Shown here piece by piece: positions 1,491-55,834 of a stretch of 64,000 nucleotides of DNA (positions within the stretch are counted from its first letter, which is position 1; every line of letters starts with the position of its first letter). The position numbers were made by a program, and so were the translations under genes. The stretch comes from Crambe crambe (Eukaryota > Porifera > Demospongiae > Poecilosclerida > Crambeidae): positions 8,961,927 through 9,025,926 of the forward strand of contig OZ004582.1 of the NCBI GenBank assembly GCA_963924555.1, written 5' to 3'. The notes under the pieces were generated by a model, which saw only the letters and a program-made list of their open reading frames with translations, was not told the DNA's origin and did not search any database.

Positions 1491-2029
1491 AATCTGGCTT
1501 GTATTCAGTGTGAAGGGTAAAATTACTAATCAGCCCATTTTTTTTTTTTTTTGCTATCTGATCATACCTAAAAGTACAAGTTTGTAATGCAGTGGTAAGG
1601 GTCGGCTACACGAGACTATTTGAAGCTTGACTTCTGTAAATGGAGACACATTATAGGGGAAGAATAGAATATCCTGTCTTCCAACTTTGGCAATCATAGC
1701 TATATCTAGAAAACTCTGCTATAAACTGGTAGCCATCTGAAATATGATACTTTTGTCTGATTATTGGTTTTTTCAGACACCTGTTTGTTTTAATGATGCA
1801 TAAAGGGGGGTAAACCAACTTCTTAGAAGTGAATGCATAGGATAATGAATGACAAAAATGACCCTAGGGCAACAAGGTTCCATTTGTGTAAGGAATGGTC
1901 TCGGCAAGGGCTAAATGAAATGAAAAATACCAAAATTAATGAATAGTGTTTAACAAGTAAGATTAAGGAGGGGTTGATAGGCATTCCAGGCTACTCTCTC
2001 CTGTAATGTTATCTTCAATAGTCAGAAAG
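1491..2029. other. Intergenic spacer, no gene recognised
   Basis: AT-rich sequence with a short T-run near 1538. A stretch at about 1590-1613 (GGTAAGGGTCGGCTACACGA then GACTA) resembles one end of the TAGTCT-ended short elements described at 18071-18140. No exon, RNA gene or complete element is apparent. Confidence 0.4.
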
Positions 2030-2251
2030 CAGTGGTGGATCCAGGATTTTCAAAAAGGGGGGGCACACAGGCTTATGGAAAAAATATCTGCGCGCTTGCG
2101 CGTGAAAAATTTTTTTTTACCCAGCTTTGGCTAACCAGCTAACTTGCAAACTGTCATGCACCACTGTAAATTATTATAAGTGGCCACACCAAAAAGGGGG
2201 GGGGGGGGGGGGGGCATGTGCCTGAAATGCCCACTCCTAGATCCACCACTG
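2030..2251. mobile_element. Short non-autonomous inverted-repeat element (CAGTGGTGGATC ends)
   Basis: A 222-bp element begins CAGTGGTGGATCCAGGA and ends with the near-complement TCCTAGATCCACCACTG. The pentamer GAAAG lies directly outside both ends (2025-2029 and 2252-2256), which fits a 5-bp target duplication. The interior holds G-runs, including about 18 G at 2197-2214, and no coding capacity. CAG..CTG ends with a 5-bp duplication are seen again at 34394-34775. Such ends occur in hAT-related miniature elements; the superfamily is an inference. Confidence 0.65.
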
Positions 2252-2650
2252 GAAAGGATATCTAGTCCTTGCAATCCACACAATACCAGTCAATATCCGC
2301 CATCTATAACATCAACCTTACCTATGTCAAACACATTTCAAGTGATACTATTGATCACAGACATCACAATCCATCTGCCACCTATATGATCATCACTTTC
2401 AACTGATGTACCATCTACATCACTGCTCTTGTCAGCTGATAAAAGATGATACCTCTCATCTGTTTTGTTACTCTCGGCATCACTGGAGTCACTTGAAGAC
2501 ATGGATTCCTTGTCCTTTTTTACAGTGTGAAATCTTATCCATGGCCTTAAAATAACACTCTCTTAGCTATGTAAACAAAAGCTTACTTGTTTTTACGAGT
2601 AATTCTCAGGTTTCAATCTCACTCTTGAACTGATCTGATACAGTTGATTT
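2252..2650. other. Intergenic spacer, no gene recognised
   Basis: No exon with splice signals, no repeat array and no RNA gene could be identified here. Confidence 0.3.
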
Positions 2651-2917
2651 AGTAAGACTGGTGGAGAGAATAGAGGAGTAGCAAGTTATATGATTCAACA
2701 CCCAGATAGAGGACCTGACAGAGGAAGTGCAATAACTGGAAGAAGTACACATAATCAAAGAATTGAACGGTTATGGAAAGATCTCTTTGTTGGTTGTGCT
2801 TCTTTCTTCTATAACTTCTTCTATTCACTAGAAGATACAAACTTATACTTTGTTTTTCTCCCTTGTGATCCCAAGACACACACACACACACACACCATAT
2901 ATGGAAGACCTCAATAA
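2651..2917 (+). pseudogene. Fragment of an integrase-core (rve-type) transposase
   Basis: One frame from 2651 reads through [11 protein letters not shown], then [19 protein letters not shown] and [11 protein letters not shown]. The pattern ITGRS.HNxRIERLWRDxF followed by an aromatic FY stretch and LED is characteristic of an integrase-like protein family that is multicopy in invertebrate genomes; the E in RIERLW lies in the C-terminal part of the catalytic core. The N-terminal part and the earlier catalytic acidic residues are missing, and the frame shifts just upstream. The end runs into a CA microsatellite (2877-2895). A dead transposon fragment is most likely. Confidence 0.6.
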
Positions 2918-3321
2918 AAAATGTGAAGACAAAATGACATTTTTCAACAGCTACCTTCATATTTTTGAAGCCATACTCTCCCCTAATGAAGATATGGACA
3001 TATATATTCTTATTACACGAGCTTTTTAAAAATTCTAATATACAGCTAAAAGAATGAAAAGTACTACTAGCAATAAGACTGATAGGATTAGAACTTGGGC
3101 TGGCTCAGTGCTTTTATGACCTGTGCTGTAGCTGTACACGTACACAGGTCTGTATAAACGGTACGGGTCAGTAAAATCTACAAGTCTGTAACAGGTCCGC
3201 AGACCTGCTGCCCCACGGACTGCATGCTGCAGATCAAAAATTAGTACTTCCTGTGCCTAGGGTTTACTGATTTTGTTACATAGCTACCTGTTACAGAATG
3301 CGAGGATTTACCCGATGGGTC
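2918..3321. other. Intergenic spacer before the Ginger-like element
   Basis: A spacer with no recognisable exon. It includes a GTACACGTACAC palindromic stretch near 3134-3145. The GGTC at 3318-3321 is the left copy of the target duplication of the following element. Confidence 0.3.
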
Positions 3322-3500
3322 TGTCATGCCAAAAGTGGACCGGGAAAAAAGTGGACCCCCGGTCCACTTTTGGCAGAAAAAAATGGACCGGGGGGTCCAC
3401 TTTTTTCTGCCAAAAGTGGACCTGCCTTGCCAAAAGTGGACCTGGTCCATTTTATCAAGAAAAAAGTGGACCTGGTCTAGTTTTGCTGTCTAAATCTAAG

Positions 3501-4065
3501 CAGGTCCACTTTTGGCAGGGGAAAAAAGTGGACCCGATCCAGTTTCCTGCCGAAATCCAGGCAGGTCCACTTTTGGCAGGGGAAAAAAGTGGACCCGGTC
3601 CAGTTTCGCTGCCGAAATCCAGGCAGGTCCACTTTTGGCAGGGGAAAAAAGTGGACCCGGTCCAGTTTCGCTGCCGAAATCCAGGCAGGTCCACTTTTGG
3701 CAGGGGAAAAAAGTGGACCCGGTCCAGTTTCGCTGCCGAAATCCAGGCAGGTCCACTTTTGGCAGGGGAAAAAAGTGGACCCGGTCCAGTTTCGCTGCCG
3801 AAATCCAGGCAGGTCCACTTTTGGCAGGGGAAAAAAGTGGACCCGGTCCAGTTTCGCTGCCGAAATCCAGGCAGGTCCACTTTTGGCAGGGGAAAAAAGT
3901 GGACCCGGTCCAGTTTCCTGCCGAAATCCAGGCAGGTCCACTTTTGGCAGGGGATAAAAGTGGACCCGGTCCAGTTTCCTGCCGAAATCCAGGCAGGTCC
4001 ATTTTTGGCAAGGGAAAAAAGTGGACCTGGTCCAGTTTTGTTGCTGAAATTTAGGCAGGTCCACT
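3501..4065. repeat. 61-62 bp minisatellite, about nine units
   Basis: Tandem units start with CAGGTCCACTTTTGGCAGG at 3501, 3562, 3624, 3686, 3748, 3810, 3872, 3933 and 3994, with a partial unit at 4056. Periods are 61 or 62 bp, depending on CCTGCC versus CGCTGCC. Each unit contains an inverted pair, GTCCACTTTT and AAAAGTGGAC, so single strands can fold. Because 62 is not a multiple of three, translations cycle through frames; the long open frames on both strands are a by-product. More degenerate copies lie at 3330-3480, and related GGTCCA motifs occur at 5634-5688, so the array derives from the terminal repeat of the surrounding element. Confidence 0.9.
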
Positions 4066-4511
4066 GAAGATTAACCCACCCTCCTCCCAATAATCATAAG
4101 TTAATCAATTGCATAGGTTAAGTCTATTGAAGTTTGTCAAGTTATTTTTTTCCTTAAAAGGATACCTACATAGGAATATAACTGCATGCTATATAAAATT
4201 CACTTGTTGACTATCTGGTTATTATTTACATGTAGGACAAGACCACTTTATATCAGATATGTTATTCATGTAATGTCACCATGCAGCATCTCAAGTGATA
4301 TTAGACTTTACTCAAGGGTCACAAATCAAGGAGTGAACATGTGATACAAGATTACGTCATAAGTGAAATCACAATGATGATTACATAACAGTTAGTAATG
4401 ATAAAAGTAATAATTAATGTTACCCCCTCCTCCAGTTAGAGCTTGCCCCGAGCTTACTTTCTTCCATAGTAGAGGGATGGTCAGATTACTAGGGTAACTC
4501 AGATTTAAGTG

Positions 4512-5165
4512 TACATGAATAATATCATCTTTTGAAGTGTAGACACGTTTTCGCCGGTTGGAGTCACCTCAACAACTCAATAGGGTCCATGCCACAGACG
4601 AGATAACTTCTGAAACTTCCCGGACTCTTCCTGAGGGAATCGAAATAGCACTAGACCTCCAATCTTGAACTGCATAGGAGAACATTTGTTCACCTTATTA
4701 TAGTACTTTTTGCAATGTTTCTGGGCTTTCTGGATTGACTGGGTATCTCAGTGAGTTCCTGTCGCGTCGGTAGCCTGTCAGGTCAGCCCCTTCTACCTCA
4801 TTAGCAGGAAGAAATGCAGCTTCAATACGATAGCTACCATAAAGAAGGTAAGATGGCTTCTCACCTGTTGCCTCATGTGGGGTGTTTCGATAGGCAAGCA
4901 GGCATCCCATGTAAATACTTGTCCCACTGCTTCCCATAGACATCAACATGCTTGCATATCAGCGTACGAGAGTACGATTAAACCTCTCGGTGAGGCCATC
5001 ACTCTGAAGATGGTATGCTGTAGTATTCAATTTCGTAATTCCAAGAAGACTGCATACATCGGTCATCAGGTAGGATAGCTGATTGGGTCCCTTCTCCGAT
5101 AGTAGACTTTCTGGAACACCACAGCATCAGTATGTCCACTATTAAACCATACAGCCTTTTGGTCA
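4512..5165 (-). pseudogene. Gypsy/Ginger-type integrase core and GPY/F domain, degraded
   Basis: Reading the minus strand, one frame gives GVPESLLSEKGPNQ, then TTAYHLQSDGLTERFNRTL, one stop near 4969, LLAYRNTPHEATGEKPSYLL and YGSYRIEAAF. After a frameshift come PMQFKIGGLVLFRFP and KLSRLWHGPY, a GPY/F-like module. These are hallmarks of the gypsy integrase catalytic core: HGVPE..LSDxG, AYHPQSDGxxERxNRTL and the RxTxHxxTGxxPxxLxxG tail. The second catalytic acid, normally D in LSDxG, is E here, and the first acidic motif is not recognisable. It cannot be functional as it stands. It lies on the same strand as the fragment at 5451-5648. Confidence 0.75.
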
Positions 5166-5450: not shown

Positions 5451-5648
5451 CTATGAAAAATCAGGTCTTACCACGCTCTTCTTTTTCTTCTGGATGAAAA
5501 GAACTCCCTTTCTTACATTGAACATAGCTGCTTTCTCTCCAATAGCTCTCTTTTTGTCTTGACTACAGTCTGGTGGGTAGCGCTCCTCAGTTATGTATAA
5601 GCTGATATGCCCGGATAACTTTTGGTAAAGGCGGTCCACTTTTTTCAT
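5451..5648 (-). pseudogene. Integrase N-terminal (pre-zinc-finger) fragment
   Basis: A 65-residue frame beginning MKKVDRLYQKLSGH and containing EERYPPDCSQDKKRAIGEKA and an FNVRKGVLF segment. The YP...DKKRxIRxKAxxFxVxxGxLYY pattern normally sits just before the H2C2 zinc-binding domain of gypsy-type integrases. Orientation and order agree with the core at 4512-5165. The intervening sequence, which should hold the zinc knuckle and the first catalytic motif, is not recognisable. Its first codons (AAAAAAGTGGACCGC) overlap the GTGGACC motif of the element end. Confidence 0.55.
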
Positions 5649-5797
5649 GGAAAAAACTGGCGCCGGTCCATTTTTTTCCCCGGTCCAAATTTTTCGTGAC
5701 AGGTCTTAAGAATGACAACCGATGCAATTTGGCGCCAAGTTGCATTTATAGGGACTAGTTATCAAATGCAATTTTTCCTGTTACTAGATCGGTGGAA

Positions 5798-8700
5798 ATG
5801 GTCAAAATAAAAGTTGGAGTTCTTCTGATACTACTTTCCGCCTACTCTTCTCTGGCTGCAGGTACAAATAACAACAGTTGGCCTTTCATAAAGTCAGATT
5901 TGTGAACTGTGGTAGAATGAACTTGTGTTGAAGGGGGTATTGATCCTGGTGCTGCTGAATGGTATTAACTAACTTGCCTATTCAAGTAGTCACTACGTAC
6001 CTACCTCACCTTTTCCCGGCCTGTAGCCAGGATTTTAGAAAAGGGATGGCTCAGGAGGATAACTTAATAATTAGCTAGCTAATTATTGTGTTACTCAGCT
6101 AAGATATTTTCAATGTGTTATAATAAAATGGTTATCGATTCAGGAAACTAATGATAAATTGTGACTAAGTTATGGGGGGGGGGGGGTTCAAGCCCATTGA
6201 GCTGCCTGCTGGCTACAGGCCTGTTTTCTTAGGCCACTATTTGTTGATCATAAGTTTCTCATCAGATGGTTTTGTGGTGGGCAGCATAGTGTAATCGGAA
6301 AACCACAGGAGTTGATACAGTCAGAAGTGAAAGAAATATAATTGGCTAGGTAGAGTAAACAAATGTGGACAGGGGATGAGAAACTTATAATCAACCAATA
6401 GTGGGCACCCACACATCAGTGCCTCTCCTCAGCAAAATCTATTTTTACTCGAACTCCCACTCTTCTCAGCTCTGTTGATGCCTCTTTATGTCATGTTGAT
6501 GTGGATGGCATCAATCATGATAAAATCATAGGTAATATGTAGCTTATTATTCATAGGAGTACTGCTTTAATTCTTGTCACTGAAACTTTCAAATGAAATG
6601 CAGGATGCATTAGATAACCAGTTGTTTATTTCTTTCAGATGGTGATTTGAGGCTGGTTGGCTCATCTTACTCTAACAGTGGTCGTCTGGAGATTTTCTAC
6701 AATGGAGTGTGGGGCACAGTGTGTGATTATGGTTTCACCTCCATTGAGGCCACTGTTGCTTGTAGACAGCTTGGTTATTCAGGATACAGTAGATATGGAA
6801 ATGTTGGAACCTTAGGGTAGGGATCTTTTCTTGAATATAGTGTACAAACAAGTATACAGTGGAACCTCTAAATGCGGACACCTTTGGGACCAGTGAGAAG
6901 TGTCCGGATTAGAGAGCTGTCCCTATTTCAGGGGTTAAATTATACACATTTATATTGTGTTAATTGGGACAAGAAAAAGTGTCCTGATTAGAAAGGTTTT
7001 TGCATTTCAAGGAGCCCACTATACAAGTTTCTCGTACAAGTTTCTCATCCTCCCCACCCACATCAGTCTGAGCAAAACCATCTAATGAGAAACTTATGAT
7101 CAATGGCCTTAGGGGTTCCACTGTAATGATTATTATCACACATGCAGCTATAATCAAGGAACAGGGATAATTTGGTTGGATAATGTCAACTGCTATAGTT
7201 CTAACACTCGACTATCACAGTGCAGTCATCTTGGATGGGGTGTGACTCGCTCTTGTTACCACAGTGAAGATGTTGCTCTGCAATGTACTACTTCTAGTGA
7301 GTTTATTCTAGAAATAGAGAAGTTCCATCATAGAGACCGAGTCAAGTTGAAGCAATAATAAAAGTATACATGTATACTATAGTATTGTGGTCTGTATTAA
7401 CAGATGGTGCTCTGAGGCTGGTTGGCTCATTGTACTCTAACCATGGTCGATTAGAGGTCTACTACAATGGAGTGTGGGGCACAGTGTGTGATGATGGTTT
7501 CAGCTCCACTGATGCTAGAGTTGCTTGCACACAGCTTGGTTTTTCAGGATACAGTAGATATGGAAGTGTTACAAGTCTTGGGTATGGGATCCTCTTAATT
7601 TTCTGTATACAGTGAATTGCAAGCTGGCTATACACAGCTGTGTAAACTTGTTAGCTATGCATAGTTCCCAACTGTCCCGAAATGTCCGGGACACCGGATT
7701 TATCAGCTCTGTCCCGTTCCGCCACGGAAGTGTAAACTGCCTATTGTTTGTCCCCCCCCCCCCCCCCCCCCCCAAGCTTCTTTTTAGCACTACAGACTAC
7801 AGTAGTTTGTTTACTTAACAGCATAACCAGAGTCACTAATGAATGCACCACACTGATTGCAGACAATGCAGTAAGCTAAGACAGCTGCATGTATCAATCA
7901 ACAGTGCACAAGGTCAAATAATTTAGTGTCCAGTTCATTCTCCACAGTTCTTGAGTCCTTCTGTCTTCAGTCAGTTGCCAGAATATGGGCGTGGTACAGG
8001 GGGGGACTTCAAAAGTAGGTGTGACTTGTGGTAGAATTTAGCGTAGGCATGCCTATTATCGCCACCTTGCGTGTTCGTCCTATTATCGCCATTCTGCTGT
8101 AACTGCTCAGTAATTGCTGCTAATCAATTTTGCACATGCTCAGTAGTTAGAGAAGAGCACGTGCTTCATTTTGACGCCTGTTTGATGTTTTAAGCTGCAA
8201 CTGGTGAGAAGCTATGGCGATCAAAGCTAACCGATGTTTGTTTTTGAACTGACTTCGAGGTTGGCGATAAGATATATCTTCTGAAAAAGCCTGTTAGTGA
8301 AGGTAGGTGTTTCAATAGGCAAAACTGATAGGCTCAAACTATCACAGATGTACAGGAGGCTATTTTGGTTGTAAAACTAGCCAGTTAACTGGCATATTTT
8401 TTCACAGAATGCCTGGAAAACGAAAGCGTTGTGTATGGAACGATGAAGACATGGTTTTGGCAATGGAGGATGTTAAAAGAGGGAAGATGAGTGTCAATGC
8501 TGCTTCCAAGCTCCATAATGTACCACGAAAGACTTTGGATGACAGGATAAGGGGGCGGGTGAGGCATGGTACGAAGCCAGGACCCAGCACTATCCTCTCG
8601 CTAGATGAAGAAAAAGCTCTTACCTCCTACCTTGTATACATGGCACAACGTGGTTTTCCACTCACTCGAACAATGGTAAAGGCTTTTGCTTGGGCGATTG

Positions 8701-11700
8701 CCAAGCGTTCAGGCAATGGGGATCGTTTTAGTACTGAAAATGGACCTGGAGAACACTGGTGGCAAAATTTCAAAAAGCGACATCCCAAGCTGTCGCTAAG
8801 ACAGACTGACTCACTTGATCGTAGTCGTGCTGAGGCCTTAAGTATCGTCTTTTGGGTCGATTGTGACAAGTGTGGCTGCTGGGTACATAATTATTGTGCT
8901 TTTAATAAGAAGAATGACGTTACCTGTGGTTATGTGCTCAAGCTGCACATAGCTTAACAGCCAGTGTAGCTATTTCTTGTTCAATATTGATTGATTGAGT
9001 TTTTTAATTGTATATTAGCTAAAAATAACAAATTGGCTATAATAAGAACTGTTGTCCAATTATCGCCAAGGACTGGGCGATGATACCCTGTAGAACCTAT
9101 TTATCGCCAGTTTTGGAGTCAATAGTGCACTTTAGTTTATAATTCGAGAAAGGGTGTGGCTGGCTCTAAATAATTTCCGGATATGATAGAAGGGACTCTT
9201 CCCTTTGAACAGCAGTACAGAGTTCGAGCGTTCACCGTTCCACGGCTGTGCTGCAGAGTAAATGGACCGGATAGTGGCGATAATAGGCGTGTTTACGCTA
9301 GTGTCCCTGAAGTTAGTTTCTCAAAGTTGGGAACTATGGCTATGTGTGGCTTTTCCTCAATAGATGCAAGTTTTTATTGCAATCAAATTTGCATTTTACA
9401 TTTGGAAAACCAACTTTCAATTCACTGTATGAACACTACCTTAAGTTTCGAATTCATGTTTACAATTTTCATGTTAATTTAGTTACAGTTTACTTGTCTA
9501 ATTTTCATGAAATTAATTTTCGTTGTTGAACATGACCACGAAAATTAATCAACTTTGAAAATTCCCAATCTGTGGGTATATTATATAGCAGAACTATATT
9601 GTCAATTTATCATCCATCAGGCAGGGATAGGTGGTGGCCTTGAAGCATTCATGGCTTTGGGAACAATGAAATGTTTTCATAGCCCAATCTGATTGGTCAC
9701 TTACAGGTTTCTTATTCTCATAGTCTACCTGGTACAGGTAGTCTACATATAGACTACCTGCTCTCAGGGCATTAATAGACACTTTCTCTAAGGACTTAGC
9801 AACACACTAACTGTTTCCAAGGAGGTAGCTGTAGCATTTCAAAATGCTGAGATATTTTATGACAAGAACAACGTAGACATCACAGATGAACTCAACAACC
9901 CCAGCGTATTCTGTGGAACAGATAGAGCTGGACTGGAACAGTAGAGCTGGATAGAGAGCAGGCTTGACTGGAGCTGGAATGCTCTTCAAGGAGGGCGGAG
10001 TTTGAATCTAGTTGCTGACTCAGTTGATAGGATAGCTCGTCCTCATAGTCTGGACTTGCCATGCTAGCTTCTTTACAATAGAGCTGCACCAGGGTTCGCC
10101 TAGGCAGCCTGGCTTACCACATAATACGCTGGGGTTGTTGAGTTCATCTGTGACTACGTTGTTCTTGTCATAAAATCTCAGCATTTTGAAGCGCTACAGC
10201 TACCTCCTTGGAAATGGTTAGTGTTCTAAATCAGTTAGACACCTTGACCAACGGGGTCTACTGTATTTAGACACCCTTAGGCCCTTAGCAGCGCCCTCGC
10301 TGTGCTCGGGACGCTACAGCCCAGGGCCTTCAGGTTGTCTAAATACAATAGACCCCTTGGTCTCGGTGTCTAACTATTATTTAGCCACTAGCTATTCCAG
10401 AGCCTCTGCCTTATGCATGACGATTCTTCTGCCAACTACTGTATGCATACATGTATGTCTTTATCACACATGCAGCTTTAGTCAAGGAACAGGGAGAATT
10501 TGGTTGGATAATGTCAACTGCTATAGTTATAGTACTCGATTATCACAGTGCAGTCATCTTGGATGGGGCGTGACTCGCTCTTGTTTCCACAGTGAAGATG
10601 TTGCTCTGCAATGTACTCCTACAACTACCAGTAAGTGGTCACCTTCTTCTAGTTCCACTGAACTTGAGTGTGTTTAAGTTCCAGGACTATGAGGACCTTG
10701 CAATAAAAATTACATATAATAATTATACATGATGCTTATATTAAAGATATTAATTTTGTTTCAGATGGTGCTTTGAGGCTGGTTGGTTCATCTTACTCTA
10801 ACAGTGGTCGACTGGAGATTTACTATAATGGAGCATGGGGGACAGTGTGTGATGATGGTTTCAGCTCCACTGATGCTAGAGTTGCTTGCAGAGAGCTTGG
10901 TTATTCTACATACACCAGATATGGAAATATTCGAACTTTTGGGTAAGGAGCTAGCAAACTATAACTCAATTCTACCAGTTTTTAATAGGTTTGACAATGT
11001 GTGTATTGCAAATAATTTATCACACATGCAGCTATAGTCAAGGAACAGGGAGAATTTGGTTGGATAATGTCAACTGCTATAGTTATAGCACTCGACTATC
11101 ACAGTGCAGTCATCTTGGATGGGGTGTGACTCGCTCTTGTTACCACAGTGAAGATGTTGCTCTGCAATGTACTCCTTATACAACTACCAGTGAGTAGTCA
11201 CTTTCTTCTAGTTCCACTGAACTTGAGTGTGTTTAAGTTCCAGGAATATGAGGACCATGCAATAAAAATTACAAAAGATATTTGTTTCAGATGGTGATTT
11301 GAGGCTGGTTGGCTCATCTTACTCTAACAGTGGTCGACTGGAGATTTACTATAATGGAGCATGGGGAACAGTGTGTGATGATGACTTCAGTTCCACTGAT
11401 GCTAGAGTTGCTTGCAGACAGCTTGGTTATTCCACTTACAGTAGATATGGAAATGTTCGTACTTTTGGGTAAGGCAAACTATAGCTAACTCAATTCTACC
11501 AGTCTTTGACAGGTTTGACAATGTGTGTATTGCAAAAAATTTGTCATACATGCAGCTATAGTCAAGGAACAGGGACAATTTGGTTGGATAATGTCAACTG
11601 CTATAGTTATAGCACTCGACTATCACAGTGCAGTCATCTTGGATGGGGCGTGACTCGCTCTTGTTACCACAGTGAAGATGTTGCTCTGCAATGCTCCACT

Positions 11701-14939: not shown

Positions 14940-15566
14940 AGAGTACACAGGGCAGCTGCTGCAACATGTAGTTTATTTAGACTCTTTAACCATTTACCCT
15001 TTGTTGCTTTTAAGAGATAAGGGAACCTAACATTGTTATCATCTACCACCAGTTCTTGACCAATGTACATAATCTACATATTGGGCCAGTCTGTGGGATA
15101 TGTGAGGGTCTACTGTATCTACAAGGCCAACCCATAGTGTATAGGTGTAGATCAGAGTCAGTGATAATGATATCTGTATAGGTCAGTTTAGTGGCCCAAT
15201 AAATTATGTTGGTCTCTTTTGAATAGCTACTATAGTGAAGGCTCAGCTATAGAACTAGCTGAATTTCCCTGCCACTCCTTCAACATTTCTTCTAAATGAA
15301 AGAATGATGTAGGCTGGAGTACATGACTATAAAAAGTACAGAAACAAGATGCTGGCTATGTGCTCTGCTAACTGTCACAAACCCTACATCACTTAGTCTG
15401 GCGGCGCAGCCCCGAGCGCGCGCGAGCGCGAGGGTCTGGAATCACATAATACTTCGAGTTGTTCCTTTATCAGAAAACCTGATAAATGAATGAATATCAT
15501 TAATTTACGTGTTATGAGTCATAATGAGTCACGACATAGAATGACCTATTGACCTTTCTGAACGTT

Positions 15567-16081
15567 ATGGCAACTAACCCAACTAACCTGAAAGAAGCAG
15601 CTACCCATGCTGCAGCGAAGCTGGGATATCAAGGGTTGAAGGAAGAGCAACTAGAGGTTCTGATAGCATTCCTATCTGGGAGAGATGTTTTTGCCGTCCT
15701 TCCCACAGGATTCGGGAAAAGCTTGTGCTATGCATGTCTTCCTCTTGCTTTTGAAGAGATAGAATCTTCACCAGCTGATCAGAAACTTATAGTGATTGTT
15801 GTGAGCCCATTAATTGTTATCATGAAAGATCAGGTAAATACTAGCTGTAAATGAGCAGATTAGTGCAGCCGGTTATGCAGTTTTTAATATTCATACTAAG
15901 CAAGTCAAAGATGTGTTTATCTCTCATGGCACTGCAGGTGGATAGCTTCAGCAAAAGAGGGCTTTCTGTTGCTTGTGTTACTGGAGGTCGTGAGGATACT
16001 TCAATGAAGAAAGGGGTGCATGCTGAAGAGTATCAGTTGGTATTCATCACTCCAGAGTTATTGCTAGATAGCAATGAATGA
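15567..16081 (+). pseudogene. RecQ-like DNA helicase, N-terminal fragment
   Basis: Two exons, 15567-15833 and 15938-16081, give 136 residues. The sequence follows the start of a RecQ helicase: KEEQLEVLIAFLSGRDVFAV as the Q-motif region, PTGFGKSLCYACLPL as Walker A (motif I), VVSPLIVIMKDQV as motif Ia, then YQLVFITPELLL. It stops at TGA 16079-16081 before the DEAH box, so ATPase and helicase functions are lost. RecQ helicases unwind DNA with ATP. Here the gene lies wholly inside the 15394-17279 element, facing the Cys-rich gene, so it is transposon-borne cargo or machinery and not a host repair gene. Confidence 0.75.
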
Positions 16082-16117
16082 TCTTTGAGATTTTCCTTCC
16101 ATTTCTTTACCTTGATG

Positions 16118-17084
16118 TCATGGTTGGAGCCCAGCTGACTTAAAGTACGAATTACTGTTGAATGTGACATGCAGATATTCAGTCTTTGAAGCCTTATATA
16201 CACCTTTCAGAGTAATATTACATAGAGTATCATATCTTAATAAATGTAAGGTACACACCTGTTTTGAAGTATGCCCAGCATAAAGAATGATAGATATTAT
16301 TTTTTGAATAAGGCTCATTCTGGAGTAGCGATGCTTGAGGAGAATAGAGGCACACATGCCAATGACAGCTTTTTCATTAGAACGTTTGGTTTTGGTTTTG
16401 GTGAGGCATTGAAGTAAATTAATAAAGATAGGAGCATATTAATTTTGTTTAATTCATTCAGAAGCATATCCCATTTAAAATCTTCCAATTTAGAACTCTG
16501 AAGAATTGAGTTTGATTCCAGTGAGACCATTGTTTTTATTTCTTTGCATATGATATTACCAAGGTAATTAAGAACAAACTGCCTGGTTTTGGGATCAGTA
16601 AAGCACTCTCTAACTATAGCATATTTGCTCCCCCTGGCAACAGCTTTACCAATCTTTTTCCTAGTTGGAGTCAACATATATACCTACACAAAAATATAAT
16701 GTTATAGCTAATTATGCTTTTCTTTTATTGCAAGATTCATACCCCAACAGCTGGAGAAGAGCTTGCAGAGGAATCAGTTGACAACATAACAGGACTGGGG
16801 TCAAGTTTGATTCGCTTGGGTGTAGTGCTTTGTTCATCAAAATATTTCACTAAATTATTTTCTATTTTTTTCTGTAGGTCTGCATATCGTTCAAATGCCA
16901 AGAAGCAAGATCTACACATGTACTCAAAGCCTTCACCAAGGTTGCAAGAATAGTCTAAATGGGTTACAAAAGCCTTCCAGAGAGAAAAGACATGTTGTGA
17001 TTTGGAAGAACGTAGCAGTCTCCTGTTTGTCTTCTTATCTGTGACATCATTGCCACAACCACAGCAACGGTCACACTGACTCAT
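16118..17084 (-). pseudogene. Transposon-borne Cys-rich protein of unknown function
   Basis: Minus-strand exon 16743-17084 starts MSQCDRCCGCGNDV and carries a likely zinc cluster (CDRCCGCG and later YMCRSCF). The intron uses a GTATGA donor and a GTGTAG acceptor. The next exon begins at 16683 with MLTPTRKKIGKAVARGSKYA and runs to a stop at 16315-16317. A frame change near 16340 would instead continue as SRMSLIQKIISIILYAGH and KQV, which matches my memory of a multicopy sponge and cnidarian protein family (LTPRRxxxGKAxARGS, then ILYAGHxxKQV). The family has no function known to me. The frameshift makes this copy defective. It converges on the helicase fragment. Confidence 0.6.
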
Positions 17085-17579
17085 AATTAACTCACACCAC
17101 GATCGACTATCACATTGACCACGTGGTCATGACGTGACGTATATATTGTATCGATATATATCATTTCCGTCATGCTACGTATTCAATTAACTTTTGACGC
17201 GTGCGCGTAGGGAACAACTCGAAGTATTATGTGATACCAGACCCTCGCGCTTCGCGCTCGGGGCTGCGCCGCCAGACTATACATCACTGCATGGACTGCA
17301 TTTATCACTGCTCTGCTAACTGTCATAAAATTGACATAAACCCTACTCTTTCATTTAGAAGAAATGTTACTTGTTTGCACACTTTTTTCAGGGGCTGGGG
17401 CGCAGCTAAGGATGTCAAGAATGACCCTTTACCATGCCCACCGCAACTCAGCAAGACAGTTTTTTTCTCATATGCCCTAGTCTGGCATAGCCGCCCCTCG
17501 CACGCACAATAAGACCGATGACTCCAGCATAGCTACTGGATCAGTTCTTGTGGAATTCAATTATCACGTTGCGCATGCG

Positions 17580-17880
17580 TATTCCAAGTTACTTGAAGCT
17601 TGCATGCAGGCTTTCAGTCTTGCATTCCTAACGCTTGGCTGCCTCCTTTGCAGCGGTTGAAACAGCCATCAATCACATTTCTATCCAGATATGGTCAGAT
17701 CTAAGTCACTATACTGATTTTGAAGCTTGCAAGGCTTTTAGTCTGTCGTATCCTAACGCTTAGGCTTTTAGTCTGTCGTATCATTGTCATATCCTAACAC
17801 TTAGGTTAGCTGCATCCTCTGTGCAGCATCTCGAATCGCTTGAACAGTCATCATATCTTCTATCCAGACACAGTCAGGTG
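17580..17880. repeat. Imperfect tandem duplication, about 145 bp
   Basis: Two diverged direct copies share TTGAAGCTTGCA, TTTCAGTCTTGC / TTTTAGTCTGTCG, CTAACGCTT, CAGCGGTTGAAACAG / AATCGCTTGAACAG, and TCTATCCAGA. The second copy has an internal duplication of GGCTTTTAGTCTGTCGTATC. No coding capacity. Confidence 0.5.
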
Positions 17881-18070
17881 TTCATGGTTAAATAATGTTT
17901 AGTTAATTGGCCAGCGCCAGATTCTGGCGCTAGAACTGATCTGGTATGCTGGAGTCACCAGACCATTTCCCCTTCCCTTGGGTTGGTAAAGGGTTGGCTA
18001 CGCCAGACTACATACACCCTTGGTATAAACTCATATCTATGGTGTAAACTATGTCTACGAAGCGTTCTAG

Positions 18071-26399: not shown

Positions 26400-31279
<4,880 letters not shown>

Positions 31280-33354: not shown

Positions 33355-38832
<5,478 letters not shown>

Positions 38833-39803
38833 GACTGATAGATAGCCATCATGTAGAATGTATAGTGTCTCTATACTACAAGTTTGATAGTCATCTGATC
38901 TATTTACATATTATAACATACCTTTATCTTTGAGCCTGTTTCAATATACTGTTTAGCTATAAATAGAGACATAAAGAGAGTCCCTATACAAAAGTTTCAG
39001 CTATATACCAGCTAGTTACATAGCTAGCTATTGATAACAACCTTGATCTCCACAACGAATCCAACTCTAGTCCCAACTCAGCAACTCTAGCTAAGATTAG
39101 CTACATCATGTGAGTCTTGTGTTACATATGTGTAGTACTGTAATACTATAGCAACTCAAATTACAGTAAAGAATTCCAATAATTACATATTTTGATAGTC
39201 TAAGTAGTTCTTGTAATAATATTACAGAAGTGCTGTAACAGGAGTTATGTCAAATTATATTAGCTACAACATGGCCACCATGTTTCTAATGTAAGTGACA
39301 TGTTATTTGACCAAGACAATAACTCCTCTTACAGTGCCACTGATTGTTGCTATGTTGGTTTTATACAGAAGCCATGTTGTAATGTAAGTGGCATGTTACT
39401 TGACCAAGACAATAAACTCCTGTTATAGTGCCACTGATGGTTGCCATGTGGTTTACAGAAGCCACGTTGTAGCTAGCCAATATAAGTGACATGTTGTCTG
39501 ACCAAGACAAGAAAAACTCATGTTACAGTCCCACTGATGGTTGCCATGTTCCTAAAGTGGCCAGTTATTCGATCAGGACAACCCAGTGATTAACTACCAG
39601 CAGTGATACCTAGCTACACATTAGATGCCAGTCCAAATTAAAACAGAAGCCACTGTTAAGTGGTTGGTTATTTGATCATGTATAATGAATATGGCTAGTA
39701 TGTCATAGCTGGCTATAGTTTAGTTATGTAGCTAGGGCTAGGGCTAGGGCTAGTGAGGTAGCTAGCTAGCTATTTGTTAGCTGCACCACTGCCAAGATTA
39801 GCT
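38833..39803. repeat. B' 3' flank and C upstream region, with tandem repeats
   Basis: Holds about four units of the AGAAGCCATGTTGTA / TGACATGTTATTTGACCAAG repeat (39225-39560), then three to four GGGCTA units (39735-39752). The block from about 38940 on recurs upstream of C' (45690-46532) and, shortened, upstream of C'' (52916-53170). It marks the left part of the duplicated C-D unit and probably includes the C promoter. Confidence 0.6.
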
Positions 39804-42305
39804 ATGAAAGGGAATCAAATGAGTGGAAATCAGAGATTAAAAACTGGAAGATCAGATGAGAATAGGAACATATTAAGTGAAAGCGATAATGGAGACCCAA
39901 TTCCACTGCAAGACTTACCAGTATCTCTTCCACAAAAGTCAAAGGCTTCACCACCACCATCTGCTCTGCCATTGGAAAAGCAGTTGTCTTCTCTGGCTGA
40001 AGAGGAGACAAATTCTTCATCTACTGCTGAGTCAAAGATGAGACACAGGTGTAGAGATGTCAGCACACTCTTAAGCTTCTTGGTAGCTTCAGTGTTCACC
40101 AATGCATCATTATCTTTGATAGATCCATTCTTCCCAAATGAGGTATCGTAGGGGCAACATGGTTAGAGAAATATTGTGGAAACACATTATCTCAGTATAA
40201 TTATGTGTCAGTATACTGCAAAACACCATGAGTGGACTGAATTTGAACTTCTCAATGCCAGATGCTTTAGAGATCAGAAAAAGTGTCTATTAGGGGTGAG
40301 ATAGAGGGGAACTTGTAGTCTTGCGAGCCAGACCCTATAAAGGAAAGAACTGGGTCTAGCTCGCAAGACTAGGGAACTTGCCTCATCAATCCAATAGGCT
40401 TGTTAAATGGGTGTGGTTATCTAAAGTAGGTGTGGTCAGTATATTGCCCCACCAATCAAAACATCAGAACTCAATGCTACTCCCATGTAGCTATGTTAAT
40501 GAAATGATTTTTTGGCTCATTTTTGTAAATTATAAGGCTGAGAAAAAAGGAGCCACTCCAGTTGCTGTTGGTGGCATTATTGGTGCAGCTCCACTCTGGA
40601 TGGCAGTTTTATCCCCTGTAATGGGCATTTTAGTAAGTATGAAGCTATAAAGCTATAATAGCTGTAGCTGTACATACAATATCTATAGACACATATAAAT
40701 TTGTCCACTGTGATTCTGGTTATGATATACTTCAACTTACAGTATATATCAATATTTCAATAGTTTCATTTAATTGGAGCCAGACTGGCTGTGTTCCTAG
40801 GATTATTACTAGTCGGCACTTCTTACATACTCCTAGCGTAAGTTAACCGACTTATCCCTTTATCCCTTCAATTAAAGATAGGAATATGATGGGATAATCA
40901 CTAAAACTACAGTTTTGTAACCTTCATTCCTATCACCTGGCTCTTCATTTTGGTAACTTTCCTGTTACGAACAGTTGAAGGAATCGGTTTGGCCATGTTT
41001 GCAACTGCCAAACTCACACTGGTGCCTGCACTCTTCCCAAAGTCTGTAGGGACAGTCATAGTACGTTGCTATGTTGTCAGCAGCTACATAGCAACGTAAC
41101 AGTTTTTGTTTGTTTAATAGGGGCTGGTTAACATGGCTGTAGGAGTCGGATATTCCCTTGGATATCCTTTAGGAGGAGTCTTATATGAAGTATGTGCTAT
41201 TAAGGGGAGCCTTAATATGAAGTATGAGCATCATTAAGAGGTAAATATGTAGCTATGTATGTATGCTACGATTACTATAGCTTGGAGGTTTTCAACTGCC
41301 ATTCATTGCTGTTGGAGTACCAACACTGGCAATGATAATACCATGTGTTCTACTGCTGAAGAAAAATGGTGAGTAAATTAAGGCACCAACCATTATAAGC
41401 TAGCTATTTCTTCGCTGCATGGCCAGCAGATATCAAGAAGAAGAAGAAGCCACTCCCAGTTAAGACCATGTGGAAGATTCTATTTGATGGGATCTTCATT
41501 GCCATATGTGAGTGAGTGATAACCATAGCTAGCTGTACGTATACGTACTGGCCCACTCCACACACATGAGATCATCTTTGAAATAAAATTAATCTCAGCA
41601 GTTATGAAGATAATATTTGGAATCATGAATTATCCTACAGCTAATATGCTAATTCTCAATCTTATTTTGCAGTTATTGACTTGATCCTGAGTGCTGCGGG
41701 CCTTGCTTTCTTCCAACCAACACTGGAACCATTTCTGTTGACCAACGTAAGATCTTTGTGCATGCATGCCATGCTTCCAAGCTACAGTGGAATGCTTTAA
41801 TGTGGAAAATAGTGCAGACACGATGCCTTTTCTCTGTCTTATGCATGTAGCAACAAATGTGTATCATATCAGTGGAATTAACCTTTGAGTAAAGAATACT
41901 GACTCTATATCTTTGCATCCATACAGTTCAATATGACCCCTGTACTTGTGGCTCTGACCAGCTTCATAAAGGCCCTGACACTCTTTCTGGTATCACTTCC
42001 TCTAGGACTCATCTCTGACAAAGTGGTAAGATTAAAGAAAAAAATTAGATAGATTGATTGATTGGTAGATAGATGGTATCACACATAGAGCTATAAGAGA
42101 TGACTTATCACCTCTGTATGTATCGATCATTCAGGGACACCACAGGTACTTCAGCATCACTGGCATGTTCTTGATAGTGCTGGGATGTATCATAGTGTCA
42201 ATTCCAAATTTCACAGGAATTCCGTACGTTAGAAACAAGCAAGACAGTTTAAAATTAACTTTACATTCATAATGATTATTGTTGTACTTATCCTCCATAC
42301 TTATT

Positions 42306-42338
<33 letters not shown>

Positions 42339-43363
42339 ATGATTTCTTATATACCGTAGGCAATATTGGTACATTGCTGTGGCATTTGTTTTGATTGGAG
42401 CTGGAAGTGCACTGGGATTGGTCACCACCTACCCTGAAATGATAAAGCTAGCTGGGTACGTCAAGCTCAACTTATCAAAAATTACTGACAAAACTTGTAT
42501 GCAGCTACTGTATGATTCATGAGTATTATATTAGAATGTTTTGGGTACAAATTTTGCAGCTTCATTGGTAATATGCATATGGGGTTAGGTGTTATTTATA
42601 CCTCTTCATGGATATGGTCCTTTTTATCTGTGCAAAAACCGAACTTCATAATTATGCTGATCCTTAGTCAATTTTTCATTTAACAGCAGAACTCTGGCCT
42701 TCCCTGAATGAAAAACCTCTATTATCAGAACTGATAAAGTGTTTGACACTTTTTATCAGGACTGCATGAGAGTGTTTCTCATCCCTGACATTTTCCCCCC
42801 AAAACGTTTCTGCATTGAAGAGGCTAGACTGATTGCATGTACTATTTTACGTGGATGTACGTATACCCAGAAAAAGTGCCAGAAATGAAGTTGATCAAGA
42901 AATTTTCATCCCGTTTATATCCGGAATGGTATCCAGTGGACTGAGTCTTGGGTAAGTTCTCACTTGTTGATCGTAACTCCTGATTAATGATTAGTTATCT
43001 TTCTCCTCTGCATAATTATAACTATGTAGGGAATTCCTAGGGCCAGTACTTAGTGGTGGACTCAGACAATTTCTTACTTTCTCCCTAGCAGCATTGGTAT
43101 TTGCAGAGATTGCATTGGCACAGGTATATGAGAATTCTACATTATGAATTACAATTAATATTATATTGCATAAGTCTACCCTACCATGTCCCAACAGAAC
43201 CAATTCGTTTTTCCCTCTAAAGAACCGCTTCCCTATAAGACCACTTTCTCACCCATACGAAGGAGGTGTAAATGTACACAGACACATGATATTTCCTCTA
43301 TCTTCATTATACCTGCAGGCTATTACACTTCTGGCTATGAGTCTTGTCAATTACTACACATAA
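39804..43363 (+). CDS. MFS transporter C, SLC18B1-like, 14 exons
   Basis: Exons: 39804-40142, 40537-40632, 40764-40837, 40913-41060, 41121-41189, 41281-41368, 41430-41507, 41673-41746, 41927-42025, 42135-42223, 42360-42455, 42871-42951, 43030-43123 and 43319-43363; 1470 nt, 489 residues from the first ATG. A second ATG at 39819 (MSGNQRLK) is the only one kept in C'' and may be the true start. The N-terminal tail has GDPIPLQDLP and a Ser/Pro/Glu-rich stretch. Exon 4 has LLRTVEGIGLAM (motif B), exon 5 GYSLGYPLGG (motif C-like), exon 9 ends LISDKV and exon 10 begins GHHRYFSI. The final exon ends SLVNYYT. It is nearly identical to C' and C''. Confidence 0.92.
40316..40371. mobile_element. 56-bp TAGTCT hairpin element with 9-bp target duplication in C intron 1
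   Basis: The left arm TAGTCTTGCGAGCCAGACCC pairs with the right arm GGGTCTAGCTCGCAAGACTA. GGGAACTTG flanks both sides exactly (40307-40315 and 40372-40380). The same insertion, with small indels, is in C' (47058-47104) and C'' (about 53683-53742), so it predates the C duplications. Confidence 0.8.
42311..42338. repeat. (GTT)n in C intron 10
   Basis: About 9 units. The same intron has about 17 units in C' (49053-49102) and about 24 in C'' (55763-55835). Confidence 0.9.
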
Positions 43364-43918
43364 TCACCATTGGTAACTAACTATATTGCGTAGAAGAACA
43401 TATCACATGAATAAAACCACTCCATAATGACTCTTTTTTTTTTCTATTGTGTTCGTCAATTATGAGCATCATAGGTTCAGATACACAACTTGCTTCTATA
43501 GTGTAGACTTGGTCATTATGATTCCAAACTTGCCATTATTTTTAACTCCTTGTTCCCACAGTCACTTTCATTTTTAAATCATTAACTCTTTGTTTAATAA
43601 TAAATAAAATAAGTAGATAAATGAATAAATAAACAAATAAATAAACAAATAAATAAACAAACAAACAAATAAAAATAAATCATAGTAAATAAATAAAAAT
43701 TAGCTAGCTTGTCAGCAATACAGTGAAGGAAGTTTCTTTTCAATGGCTCTGAATGACTATAGTCAGCTAGCTGTATCAGTCCAAAGTTAGTGCCAGTATG
43801 TCAAATGGGAATGTCTATAAATCATAGCTAGACCTGTGCTGATGATAGCTAGCATATATGTACATATATAAGATTGCACTCTATGAATTATAGCTAGCTA
43901 GATAAAGAGAAGAGGATT
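43364..43918. other. Spacer between C and D
   Basis: 3' UTR of C, then a region of AAATAAATAAAC-type repeats (about 43600-43690), TAGCTAGC words, and the probable D promoter. It is conserved in position after C' (50111-50675) and C'' (56816-57363). No gene is seen. Confidence 0.5.
43410..43415 (+). promoter_or_regulatory. Probable polyadenylation signal of gene C
   Basis: AATAAA 47 bases after the TAA stop, in CACATGAATAAAACCACTCC. It is conserved after C' (50157-50162) and C'' (56862-56867). Confidence 0.55.
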
Positions 43919-44414
43919 ATGAGTAATGGAGAGCTAATCCCGCTAGAAACTGCATCACCATCTCTCCTTCATGAGTCACACTCACCTCCACAGCCACAAG
44001 AAGGAGAGCAACAGTCACCCAACCAAAACTCTTGAGGGAGAGCCAACAGAGTATACAAAGCACAGGAGAAAAGACAAAATCACAGTTGCTATCTTCTTTG
44101 TCAATACTGTATCGGCCAATGCTATTCTTTGATGAGTCCGTTTTTTCCAGAAAAGGCAAGAGAAATCAACTATAAATCAGTGTAGCTAGTATAAGAAGAC
44201 AATCTTCTTTTTGGAGATAGCTAGCTAATAGTTGGTATCTTGTACGTAGCTACATACTGTAAGTGAGATAGCGCTTCATAGCAATAATTCTTAGCCATTA
44301 TTATTTCATTATTTGCAGGCTAAGGATAAAGGAGTCATTCCTTTTGCTACTGGTCTGATTATTGGTGCAGCTCCTTTAACAGTAGCAGTCATGTCCCCTG
44401 TGATCGACATGATA
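43919..44414 (+). pseudogene. MFS gene D, truncated copy 1 (exons 1-2)
   Basis: Exon 1 starts MSNGELIPLETASPSLLHES at 43919 but lacks 11 bp after CAACAGTCACC and 4 bp after GCCAATGCT relative to D'', so the frame is lost (TGA soon after the first deletion). Exon 2, 44319-44414, is intact (AKDKGVIPFATGLIIG). Homology to D stops in intron 2 near 44458, where unrelated sequence begins. The other 12 exons are absent. It is explained by a tandem-duplication breakpoint inside D. Confidence 0.85.
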
Positions 44415-45447
44415 GTAAGTAGCTAATGATCTCAGACAGCCATTAGCCATAGTTATTTCCCCTCTGGTGACTTTGTTATTTGTCTGTGATGACAAGTACT
44501 CTTCTCTCCATGTTCGTAATAGTGCACACCTCAAAAATGGTGTCAGACTGCCTTATTTCTTGTGTAAATCTAGCTGGTTCCTTTGTTCTTGTATGAATGT
44601 TTGTGCTGTCCATCTGTGTCTTGATAATTTTGTTGTGAGAGTCCTGTGTGTTCCTTTGCAGTGGACAGTGATTGATGTTCAAAGTCATGTACAGGATCTG
44701 AGAGCTTTGCTGTTATTAAGGAATTCAGACTGCAGCATTAATCAACTATGACTCCACAGCCAGAACTGATTTGTGTTGTTCAGAGATTGATTCAGAATTT
44801 CACAACTTTTATTTTACATTAAAATGTGTACTATGGGGGTGAGGGGGGTTAGGCTATTCACCTGAGGCAGCACAGATTCAAATTTAGCGGGAAAGGGTTG
44901 AGGTCGTGAACTTTGACCTATCAGTTATATAAGTTGAATGCCTTATCCTTCTTGCGTGCCTTCTTTTCCGCTTGATGCAAGAAGTTATCCAAGGTACCAG
45001 AATCAGTTTTTGATGAAGTTTCCAAAAAATATGGTTTCATGACCTATTCAAGCGTTATATCATAAGAAAATCGAAATTTAAATATGTTTTTGAACATCAA
45101 ATCTAATTTTAGCACTATATCTAAAAGAAACTGTCACAGTTAGATTCTCTAGAATATTAGGATTCTGTTGATATGCTTTTTTTCTGAATTTCTTTGGATC
45201 TGGACCTTCGCAGCCAGGTTATATCTTGGTCACTTTTGGTGCCGTCCTGCAGTATTATCTTTACGTATAAAAAATTGACCCCGCCCACCATAGCATCCGG
45301 TATCACTACTGTAGCTACTGTAGACTCATGTCAAATTAATAATCACTGCATGCATACTCTCAGTTGAAGTCACTACTGTCATTCAATTCTTTACATACAC
45401 AAATTTACATTCAACTTCAAGCGCTAAGAAAAAAGGATGGAAACAAG
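44415..45447. other. Sequence unique to the first C-D junction
   Basis: The first 44 bases are D intron 2. From about 44459 the sequence has no counterpart elsewhere in the window. A plus-strand open frame of about 94 codons (to 44751) has no recognisable domain or splice context. It may be a remnant of an unidentified mobile element or filler at the duplication joint. Confidence 0.35.
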
Positions 45448-45688
45448 TAAGCACAAAAAATTTCTTCTAAATAAAAAGGGATAGCCGAAATTCTAGCTGG
45501 GCTATATAATGTACTGCAGCCTCGTATGAATACAATCCCTACTTTTACAACTGCCATAGCTAGCTATAGGTAGTGGATGTAAATGTAGGGATTGTATTCA
45601 TACGAGGCTGCAGTACATTATATAGCCCAGCTAGAATTTCAGCTATCCCTACTTAACCTTTTTATTTAGAAGAAATTTTTTGTGCTTA
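45448..45688. mobile_element. 241-bp foldback element with about 95-bp arms
   Basis: The left arm TAAGCACAAAAAATTTCTTC then TAAATAAAAA and the right arm ending TTTTTATTTAGAAGAAATTT then TTTGTGCTTA are inverted. The arms continue through TTCTAGCTGGGCTATATAAT and GTACTGCAGCCTCGTATGAA / TTCATACGAGGCTGCAGTAC. TA at both ends suggests TA-type insertion. It sits directly next to the duplication breakpoint where 38.9-kb-type sequence restarts (about 45690). Confidence 0.75.
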
Positions 45689-46532
45689 TAATATAGCTAT
45701 AGCTATAAATAGAGACATAAAGAGAGTCCCTATACAAAAATTTCAGCTATATACCAAGCTAGTTACATAGCTAGCTATTGATAACAACCTTGATCTCCAC
45801 AACGAATCTAACTCTAGTCCCAACTCCGCAACTCTAGCTAAGATTAGCTACATCATGTGAGTCCTGTGTTACATATGTGTAGTACTGTAATACTATAGCA
45901 ACTCAAATTACAGTAAAGAATTCCAATAATTGATAGTCTAAGTAGTTCTTGTAATAATATTACAGAAGCCATGTTGTAGCTAATGTAATTTGACCTAACT
46001 CCTGTTACAGCACCACCATGTTTCTAATGTAAGTGACATGTTATTTGACCCAGACAATAACTCCTCTTACAGTGCCACTGATGGTTGCTATGTTGATTTT
46101 ATACAGATGCCATGTTGGCATGTTACTTGACCAAGACCTGTTATAGTGCCACTGATGGTTGCCATGTCCATGGTTTACAGAAGCCACGTTGTAGGTAGCC
46201 AATGTAAGTGACATGTTGTCTGACCAAGACAAGAAAAACTCATGTTACAGTCCCACTGATGGTTGCCATGTTCCTGAAGTGGCCAGTTATTCGATCAGGA
46301 CAACCCAGTGATTAAATACCAGCAGTGATACCTAGCTACACATTAGATGCCAGTCCAAAACAGAAGCCATTGTTAAGTGGTTGGTTATTTGATCAGGACA
46401 ACCCACGTATAATGAATATGGCTAGTATGTCATAGCTGGCTATGGTTTAGTTATGTAGCTAGGGCTAGGGTTAGGGCTAGTGAGGTAGCTAGCTAGCTAT
46501 TTAGGTTAGCTGCACCACTGCCAAGATTAGCT
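45689..46532. repeat. Duplicated B-3'-flank / C-upstream block
   Basis: A copy of about 38950-39803, starting GCTATAAATAGAGACATAAA and containing the AGAAGCCATGTTGTA repeats (45960-46285) and GGGCTA units (46459-46478). It supplies the probable C' promoter. Confidence 0.75.
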
Positions 46533-49048
46533 ATGAAAGGGAATCAAATGAGTGGAAATCAGAGATTAAAAACTGGAAGATCAGATGAGAATAGGAACAT
46601 ATTAAGTGAAAGTGATAATGGAGACCCAATTCCACTGCAAGACTTACCAGTATCTCTTCCACAAAAGTCAAAGGCTTCACCACCACCATCTGCTCTGCCA
46701 TTGGAAAAGCAGTTGTCTTCTCTGGCTGAAGAGGAGACAAATTCTTCATCTACTGCTGAGTCAAAGATGAGACACAGGTGTAGAGATGTCAGCACACTCT
46801 TAAGCTTCTTGGTAGCTTCAGTGTTCACCAATGCAGCATTATCTTTGATAGATCCATTCTTCCCAAATGAGGTATCGTAATGAGGTATCGTAGGGCCAAC
46901 ATGGTTAGAGAAATATTGTGGAAACACATTATCTCAGTATGATTATGTGCCAGTATACTGCAAAACACCATGAGTGGACTGAATTTGAACTTCTCAATGC
47001 CAGATGCTTTAGAGATCAGAAAAAGTGTCTATTAGGGGTGAGATGGAGGGGAACTTGTAGTCTTGCGATATAAAGGAAAGAACTGGGTCTAGCTCGCAAG
47101 ACTAGGGAACTTGCCTCATCAATCCAATAGGCTTGTTAAATGGGGTGTGGTTATCTAAAGTAGGTGTGGTCAGTATATTGCCCCACCAATCAAAACATCA
47201 GAACTCAATGCTACTCCCATGTAGCTATGTTAATGAAATGATTTTTTGGCTTATTTTTGTAAATTATAAGGCTGAGAAAAAAGGAGCCACTCCAGTTGCT
47301 GTTGGTGGCATTATTGGTGCGGCTTCACTCTGGATGGCAGTTTTATCCCCTGTAATGGGCATTATAGTAAGTATGAAGCTATAAAGCTATAATAGCTGTA
47401 GCTGTACATACAATATCTATAGACACATATAAATTTGTCCACTGTGATTCTGGTTATGATATACTTCAACTTACAGTATATTTCAATATTTCAATAGTTT
47501 CACTTAATTGGAGCCAGACTGGCTGTGTTCCTAGGATTATTACTAGTCGGCACTTCTTACATACTCCTAGCGTAAGTTAACTGACTTATCCCTTTTATCC
47601 CTTCAATTGAAGATAGGAATATGAAGGGATAATCATTTTATTATGCTAAAACTACAGTTTTGTAACCTTCATTCCTATCACCTGGCTCTTCATTTTGGTA
47701 ACTTTCCTGTTACGAACAGTTGAAGGAATCGGTTTGGCCATGTTTGCAACTGCCAAACTCACACTGGTGCCTGCACTCTTCCCAAAGTCTGTAGGGACAG
47801 TCATAGTACGTTGCTATGCTGTCAGCAGCTACATAGCAACGTAACAGTTTTTGTTTGTTTAATAGGGGCTGCTTAACATGGCTGTAGGAGTCGGATTTTC
47901 CCTAGGATATCCTTTAGGAGGAGTCTTATATGAAGTATGTGCTATTAAGGGGAGCCTTAATATGAAGTATGAGCATCATTAAGAGGTAAATATGTAGCTA
48001 TGTATGTATGCTACGATTGCTATAGCTTGGAGGTTTTCAACTGCCATTCATTGCTGTTGGAGTACCAACACTGGCAATGATAATACCATGTGTTCTACTG
48101 CTGAAGAAAAATGGTGAGTAAATTAAGGCACCAACCATTATAAGCTAGCTATTTCTTCGCTGCATGGCCAGCAGATATCAAGAAGAAGAAGAAGCCACTC
48201 CCAGTTAAGACCATGTGGAAGATTCTATTTGATGGGATCTTCATTGCCATATGTGAGTGAGAGATAACCATAGCTAGCTGTACGACGTAGTGGCCCCCTC
48301 CACACACATGATATCATCTTTGAAATAAAATTAATCTCAGCAGTTATGAAGATAATATTTGGAATCATGAATTATCCTACAGCTAATATGCTAATTCTCA
48401 ATCTTATTTTGCAGTTATTGACTTGATCCTGAGTGTTGCAGGCCTGGCTTTCTTCCAACCAACACTGGAACCATTTCTGTTGACCAACGTAAGATCTTTG
48501 TGCATGCATGCCATACTTCCAAGCTACAGTGGAATGCTTTAATGTGGAAAATAGTGCAGACACGATGCCTTTTCTCTGTCTTATGCATGTAGCAACAAAT
48601 GTGTATCATATCAGTGGAATTAACCTTTGAGTAAAGAATACTGACTCTATATCTTTGCATCCATACAGTTCAATATGACCCCTGTACTTGTGGCTCTGAC
48701 CAGCTTCATAAAGGCCCTGACACTCTTTCTGGTATCACTTCCTCTAGGACTCATCTCTGACAAAGTGGTAAGATTAAAGAAAAAAATTAGATAGATTGAT
48801 TGATTGGTAGATAGATGGTATCACACATAGAGCTATAAGAGATGACTTAATCACCTCTGTATGTATCGATCATTCAGGGACACCACAGGTACTTCAGCAT
48901 CACTGGCATGTTCTTGATAGTGCTGGGATGTATCATAGTGTCAATTCCAAATTTCACAGGAATTCCGTACGTTAGAAACAAGCAAGACAGTTTAAAACTA
49001 ACTTTACATTCATAATGATTATTGTTGTACTTATCCTCCATACTTATT

Positions 49049-49101
<53 letters not shown>

Positions 49102-52099: not shown

Positions 52100-52136
52100 C
52101 CCCCCCCCCCCCCCCCCCCAATAATGGATAATTCTA

Positions 52137-52260: not shown

Positions 52261-52261
52261 T

Positions 52262-55763: not shown

Positions 55764-55834
<71 letters not shown>

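Follow-up and report, generated by a model that had tools for sequence, protein, structure and literature searches.

The stretch analysed here (the window) comprises 64,000 nucleotides of the genome of the sponge Crambe crambe (GenBank assembly GCA_963924555.1, contig OZ004582.1, positions 8,961,927 to 9,025,926) and contains a 1886-bp element at 15394–17279, with TAGTCT ends, terminal inverted repeats (TIRs) of about 70 bp and an exact flanking 9-bp target site duplication (TSD). This element is in all likelihood non-autonomous, having arisen by internal deletion from a DNA transposon in, or very close to, the AcademH group, whose full-length relatives pair a transposase-type gene containing the Pfam domain DUF6589 (domain of unknown function) with a convergent gene for a RecQ-family helicase. 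We infer the name AcademH from published descriptions rather than from sequence comparison, and on that basis membership is likely. The window element is very probably an ordinary member of a helicase-bearing transposon group that has already been described, a supported placement that supersedes the claim of a new superfamily.

Ends and insertion site

The left TIR (15394–15465, plus strand) begins TAGTCTGGCGGCGCAGCCCC, and the right TIR (17211–17279, minus strand) carries the same TAGTCTGGCGGCGCAGCCCC end in inverted orientation. The arms are 100% identical over 27 nt (15394–15420 and 17253–17279) and 98% identical over a further 41 nt (15425–15465 and 17211–17251), with an overall identity of 93% in a 72-column alignment. 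With up to three mismatches allowed, the first 18 bases of the end occur in the window solely at the two termini of the element, and none of 100 shuffled controls contained a match. Both copies of the TSD (15385–15393 and 17280–17288) read TACATCACT and match exactly.

The host sequence around the element is another repeat family. In a genome search with the joined flanks (40 of 328 candidates scored, 68 places listed), 61 of the 68 matches listed span the insertion junction, as related empty sites would. Two of these, L053 and L054, were read in detail; L054 has the sequence ACCCTACATCGCTGCATGGACTG, with one target copy and one substitution, and compared with the flanks in the window both loci show small indels close to the site. 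These related sites support insertion of the window element into a pre-existing repeat.

A short element of 533 bp with TAGTCTGGC ends lies about 200 bp downstream (17478–18010, plus strand). Its flanks, CATATGCCC and CATACACCC, form an imperfect 9-bp pair, equal at 7/9 positions by eye, and it is possibly a miniature inverted-repeat transposable element of a related TAGTCT family.

Gene remnants and family copies

The window copy retains parts of two genes, both truncated where they meet. On the plus strand, exon 1 of a RecQ-type helicase gene (15567–15833), encoding the Walker A motif PTGFGKS and motif Ia, ends at a splice donor at 15834, and is followed by the start of exon 2 (15938–16078), which is cut by an internal deletion and closed by a stop at 16079–16081. 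These exon borders were assigned by eye, backed by matches to the full-length copy L009; exon 1 is a 98% match to its L009 counterpart, on which Pfam identifies a DEAD domain. On the minus strand, exon 1 of a transposase-type gene (16740–17084) encodes a Cys-rich N-terminus (CxxCCxC...C...CxxC), for which Pfam gave no match above cut-off and one weak match, to zf-AD (E 0.035), below it. The remainder of this gene, from exon 2 onward (16121–16683, minus strand, LTPTRKKIGKAVARGSK), is truncated at the deletion and contains a frame change that is absent in L010–L014, with 100% and 89% matches lying in two different frames. At the deletion junction itself (16075–16092), approximately 9 bp are either filler or of ambiguous origin.

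A preliminary description of the window, made from sequence alone, had proposed a longer parent from which both genes were cut at their meeting point. L009 (5085 bp) is such a parent: it contains the 3205 bp (its positions 1700–4904) absent from the window copy. A 67-base query from the left end, searched against the 143-Mb genome (best 40 of 51 candidates scored, 20 stretches fetched), gave eight tabulated copies with both ends, namely the window copy and L009–L015, the rearranged L016 being omitted. Seven of the eight have an exact 9-bp TSD, confirming the TAGTCT-ended family with 9-bp duplications that had been described; the remaining copy, L011, lacks a TSD and is altered at its terminus. 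The window copy and L010–L015 have one internal deletion junction in common, with additional insertions in L012 and L015. Given pairwise identities of 98.5–99.8% among these seven copies, they appear to stem from recent amplification of a single deletion derivative in this genome. End pairs spaced 33–36 kb apart were also observed on C16.

Full-length elements and linkage of the two genes

Full-length elements measure approximately 5.0–5.4 kb. The plus strand of L009 encodes a Cys-rich exon, an exon with the motif LTPTRKK, and then pieces matching DUF6589 (Pfam E values, in order, of 1.4e-10, 9.4e-5, and 1.7e-24; the match at 9.4e-5 misses the curated cut-off), while DEAD and Helicase_C domains on the minus strand mark a RecQ gene convergent with the transposase-type gene. 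The first exon of L009 is disrupted by a frame change. The Pfam scan covered nine pieces of L009 and one of the window (E <= 1), and in L009, the only full-length copy whose pieces were scanned, it detected no other known transposase.

The gene structure is clearest in L043 (5233 bp), where six exons with GT/AG borders, each a multiple of three in length, form a frame of 976 codons including the stop. The resulting 975-residue protein has a Cys-rich N-terminus (CxxC...CxxC plus extra Cys) followed by DUF6589, and its gene is convergent with a RecQ gene whose helicase exon has PDB matches to WRN (4e-24), RecQ, and BLM. L043 is one of six further loci (L043–L048) selected from 97 RecQ matches by score and diversity; all six contain a DUF6589 gene, as do 7/7 loci when L009 is included. 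TAGTCT ends are present in 5/5 loci with scripted boundaries (L009, L043, L044, L045, and L048), with TSDs of 9 bp in four of them and 8 or 10 bp in L043; the script found no element boundaries or TSD in L046 and L047. Adjoining the DUF6589/RecQ element of L046, a 349-residue frame (5548–6597) carries the motif FCHDESTF...QWG, and may represent another transposase type.

Genome-wide, at least 110 DUF6589 matches fall into 81 clusters and at least 97 RecQ matches into 77. All of these matches entered the clustering, and the cluster counts are lower bounds, only the best candidates having been scored (102 of 150 for DUF6589). A RecQ cluster lies within 3 kb of 41 of the 81 DUF6589 clusters, against a chance expectation of about 0.3, and all 41 linked pairs are convergent. 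Of the 77 RecQ clusters, 36 are farther than 3 kb from any DUF6589 match. The presence of both genes at 7/7 full-length loci, together with this linkage, upholds the earlier suggestion that the helicase and the Cys-rich protein form the machinery of the element; a helicase confined to one copy, which would have spoken against it, is not what the genome contains.

Could the helicase instead be a captured host gene, carried as a passenger by one family and outside the machinery? Forty of the 81 DUF6589 clusters have no RecQ within 3 kb, which would suit such a capture. However, RecQ is carried by six diverged families, with 41–65% protein identity between them, and its orientation towards DUF6589 is invariant in the linked clusters. 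In 15/15 family pairs nonsynonymous differences are fewer than synonymous ones for both genes, with synonymous sites near saturation, and the RecQ gene of the elements is, judged from its sequence, under purifying selection. On the strength of linkage and selection a captured passenger is rejected as very improbable. For comparison with another sponge, two DUF6589 proteins of Amphimedon queenslandica match the C. crambe genome at no more than 50% identity, apart from short stretches at 51 and 57%, and a literature search for an Amphimedon transposon carrying RecQ found no paper.

The DUF6589 core

Modeling supports a DDE transposase-like core for DUF6589, with regard to both fold and catalytic residues. 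The alignment used (98 rows chosen from matches and loci, with the homologue search drawing on the best 120 of 435) displays conserved D, D, and E residues, the putative catalytic set at the D398, D566, and E818 equivalents, and the top 21 rows of solved structures for the AlphaFold2 (AF2) model in VIA-align are DDE recombinases, but distant ones. A Foldseek search with the model was uninformative and lent the DDE fold no support. An earlier model from a 13-row alignment (predicted local distance difference test score, pLDDT, 52) was too poor and was not used. The P element and hAT (Hermes) transposases show 9–10% sequence identity to the DUF6589 model in the alignment; both groups have 8-bp TSDs, and ends unlike those of the window family.

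The preliminary description had taken the Cys-rich protein for a possible new transposase. This was close: the Cys-rich region is the N-terminus of the DUF6589 protein, and it is the core of that protein that models like a DDE enzyme. Assigning DUF6589 to the transposase may be a new point and would give the domain a testable function; literature searches for DUF6589 yielded nothing apart from an unrelated optics paper.

A second class of DUF6589 proteins

Approximately 19 of the 40 RecQ-less DUF6589 clusters appear to form a class with long single frames; they were chosen by eye by open-frame length, and the frame at C9:8412612 is only 160 residues long. Four members, L049 (a frame of 1846 residues, E 1e-16 against DUF6589) and L050–L052, encode long DUF6589-type frames with no RecQ within 3 kb. 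Their C-terminal parts have in common the motifs FD(N/D)P, NAEE(A/T)DTR, PDTDVY, and TGCD(Y/F) (4/4), which we take to resemble XPG/FEN nucleases, as in AcademX. The same motifs also resemble exons of the genome's own that we presume to be EXO1-like. Searches for an XPG domain in this class with Pfam, PDB sequences, a genome search with XPG_I (PF00867) and hhalign returned nothing significant; hhalign places two of the motifs in the expected XPG register, but with a probability below 5%. No TIRs were found in the short flanks fetched for L049–L052.

It is possible that the long-frame class is AcademX. If the XPG-like end is real, this would follow, and DUF6589 would be a domain common to both Academ lineages. 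We lean, with some reserve, towards DUF6589 being the DDE core of an Academ-type transposase that occurs in two architectures, one with a convergent RecQ gene and a 9-bp stagger, the other with an XPG-like nuclease end. In that event the accessory enzyme swaps while the recombinase stays, and the roles of helicase and nuclease in setting stagger length could be compared inside one genome.

Relationship to known transposon groups

As described in a passage of PMC10045372, AcademH elements have TSDs of 9 or 10 bp and AcademX elements of 3 or 4 bp, a difference tied to the encoded helicase versus nuclease; the source cited there for the AcademH lineage of Academ is Kojima 2020 (Mob DNA 11:15), whose title names animals and fungi. 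An excerpt of PMC10799480 likewise gives AcademH as a source of DEAD/Helicase_C domains in fungi. The window family resembles AcademH in its helicase gene (RecQ in L009 and L043–L048, the first part in the window copy), in the length of its TSD, and in a DDE-type transposase, the last as suggested by the model and conserved residues. No difference was seen in this comparison with the published description. AcademX, with its short TSD and nuclease, differs from the 9-bp TSD and opposite-strand RecQ of the window family, and within this genome the candidates resembling it are the L049–L052 proteins with their nuclease-like C-terminal motifs. A Cys8 zinc finger is a feature of AcademH.

The preliminary description had known of no TIR transposon superfamily in which RecQ is a standard gene. 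This does not hold, since AcademH with a helicase (PMC10045372) and KolobokH with RecQ (PMC9587614) are both in print. KolobokH shares with the window family a DDE transposase and RecQ, and the same source mentions a rhodophyte Kolobok with RecQ on the complementary strand, so an element combining a Kolobok transposase with RecQ deserves consideration. Yet KolobokH is reported there from fungi only, with RecQ downstream of the transposase domain, and the Kolobok TSD is the 4-bp TTAA (PMC9587614). In 7/8 copies here the TSD is 9 bp long and differs from TTAA, which refutes this identification and leaves it next to no credibility.

A more serious contender, though still an unlikely one, is that the DUF6589/RecQ elements form a superfamily of their own, similar to AcademH in helicase and 9-bp TSD and with an unrelated transposase. 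In its favor, the likeness to AcademH does not derive from an Academ reference sequence, and the XPG-like motifs of the long-frame class have no significant profile match. On the other side, a helicase with TSDs of 9–10 bp in animals and fungi is AcademH as cited in that part of PMC10045372. The existence of a second, RecQ-less DUF6589 class also argues against a separate superfamily, with C-terminal motifs in 4/4 proteins that we take to be XPG-like. The helicase, the length of the duplication and the DDE core are all consistent with AcademH, and placement there is preferred.

Two further groups were considered and rejected. MuDR/MULE elements have 9-bp TSDs; no MULE domain was detected in the Pfam scan of the L009 and window pieces (E <= 1). 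Helitrons have neither TIRs nor TSDs, and encode Rep/HUH plus a PIF1 helicase; here TIRs and TSDs are present, and the scan of the same pieces detected no HUH or PIF1.

Proposed mechanism

The full-length element would express, from one end, a multi-exon transposase in which a Cys-rich region precedes the putative DUF6589 DDE core, and, from the opposite end and strand, a RecQ-family helicase. In a cut-and-paste reaction, the DDE protein would bind the ends and join them, at a 9-bp stagger, to the target DNA. Unwinding of the ends or the target may be the contribution of the helicase, or else the processing of intermediates in repair. The window copy and other deletion derivatives, which lack both activities, would be moved in trans by their relatives. 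We know of no experiment on the role of a RecQ helicase in transposition by a DDE enzyme, and several full-length families in one genome provide material for addressing it.

Other features of the window

Three tandem copies of a unit of approximately 6.7 kb occupy about 39776–57600, with stretches up to 98–100% identical and others near 75–80%; two open reading frames tried there have no Pfam match. An open reading frame at 8409–8957 contains HTH_psq and HTH_Tnp_Tc5 domains, and is perhaps, we assume, the N-terminus of a pogo/Tc5-like transposase. A 62-bp tandem array (3459–4065) comprises 9.8 copies with 95% matches, and GGGCTA-like repeat arrays are located at 29884–30383, 37459–37925, and 52507–52716.
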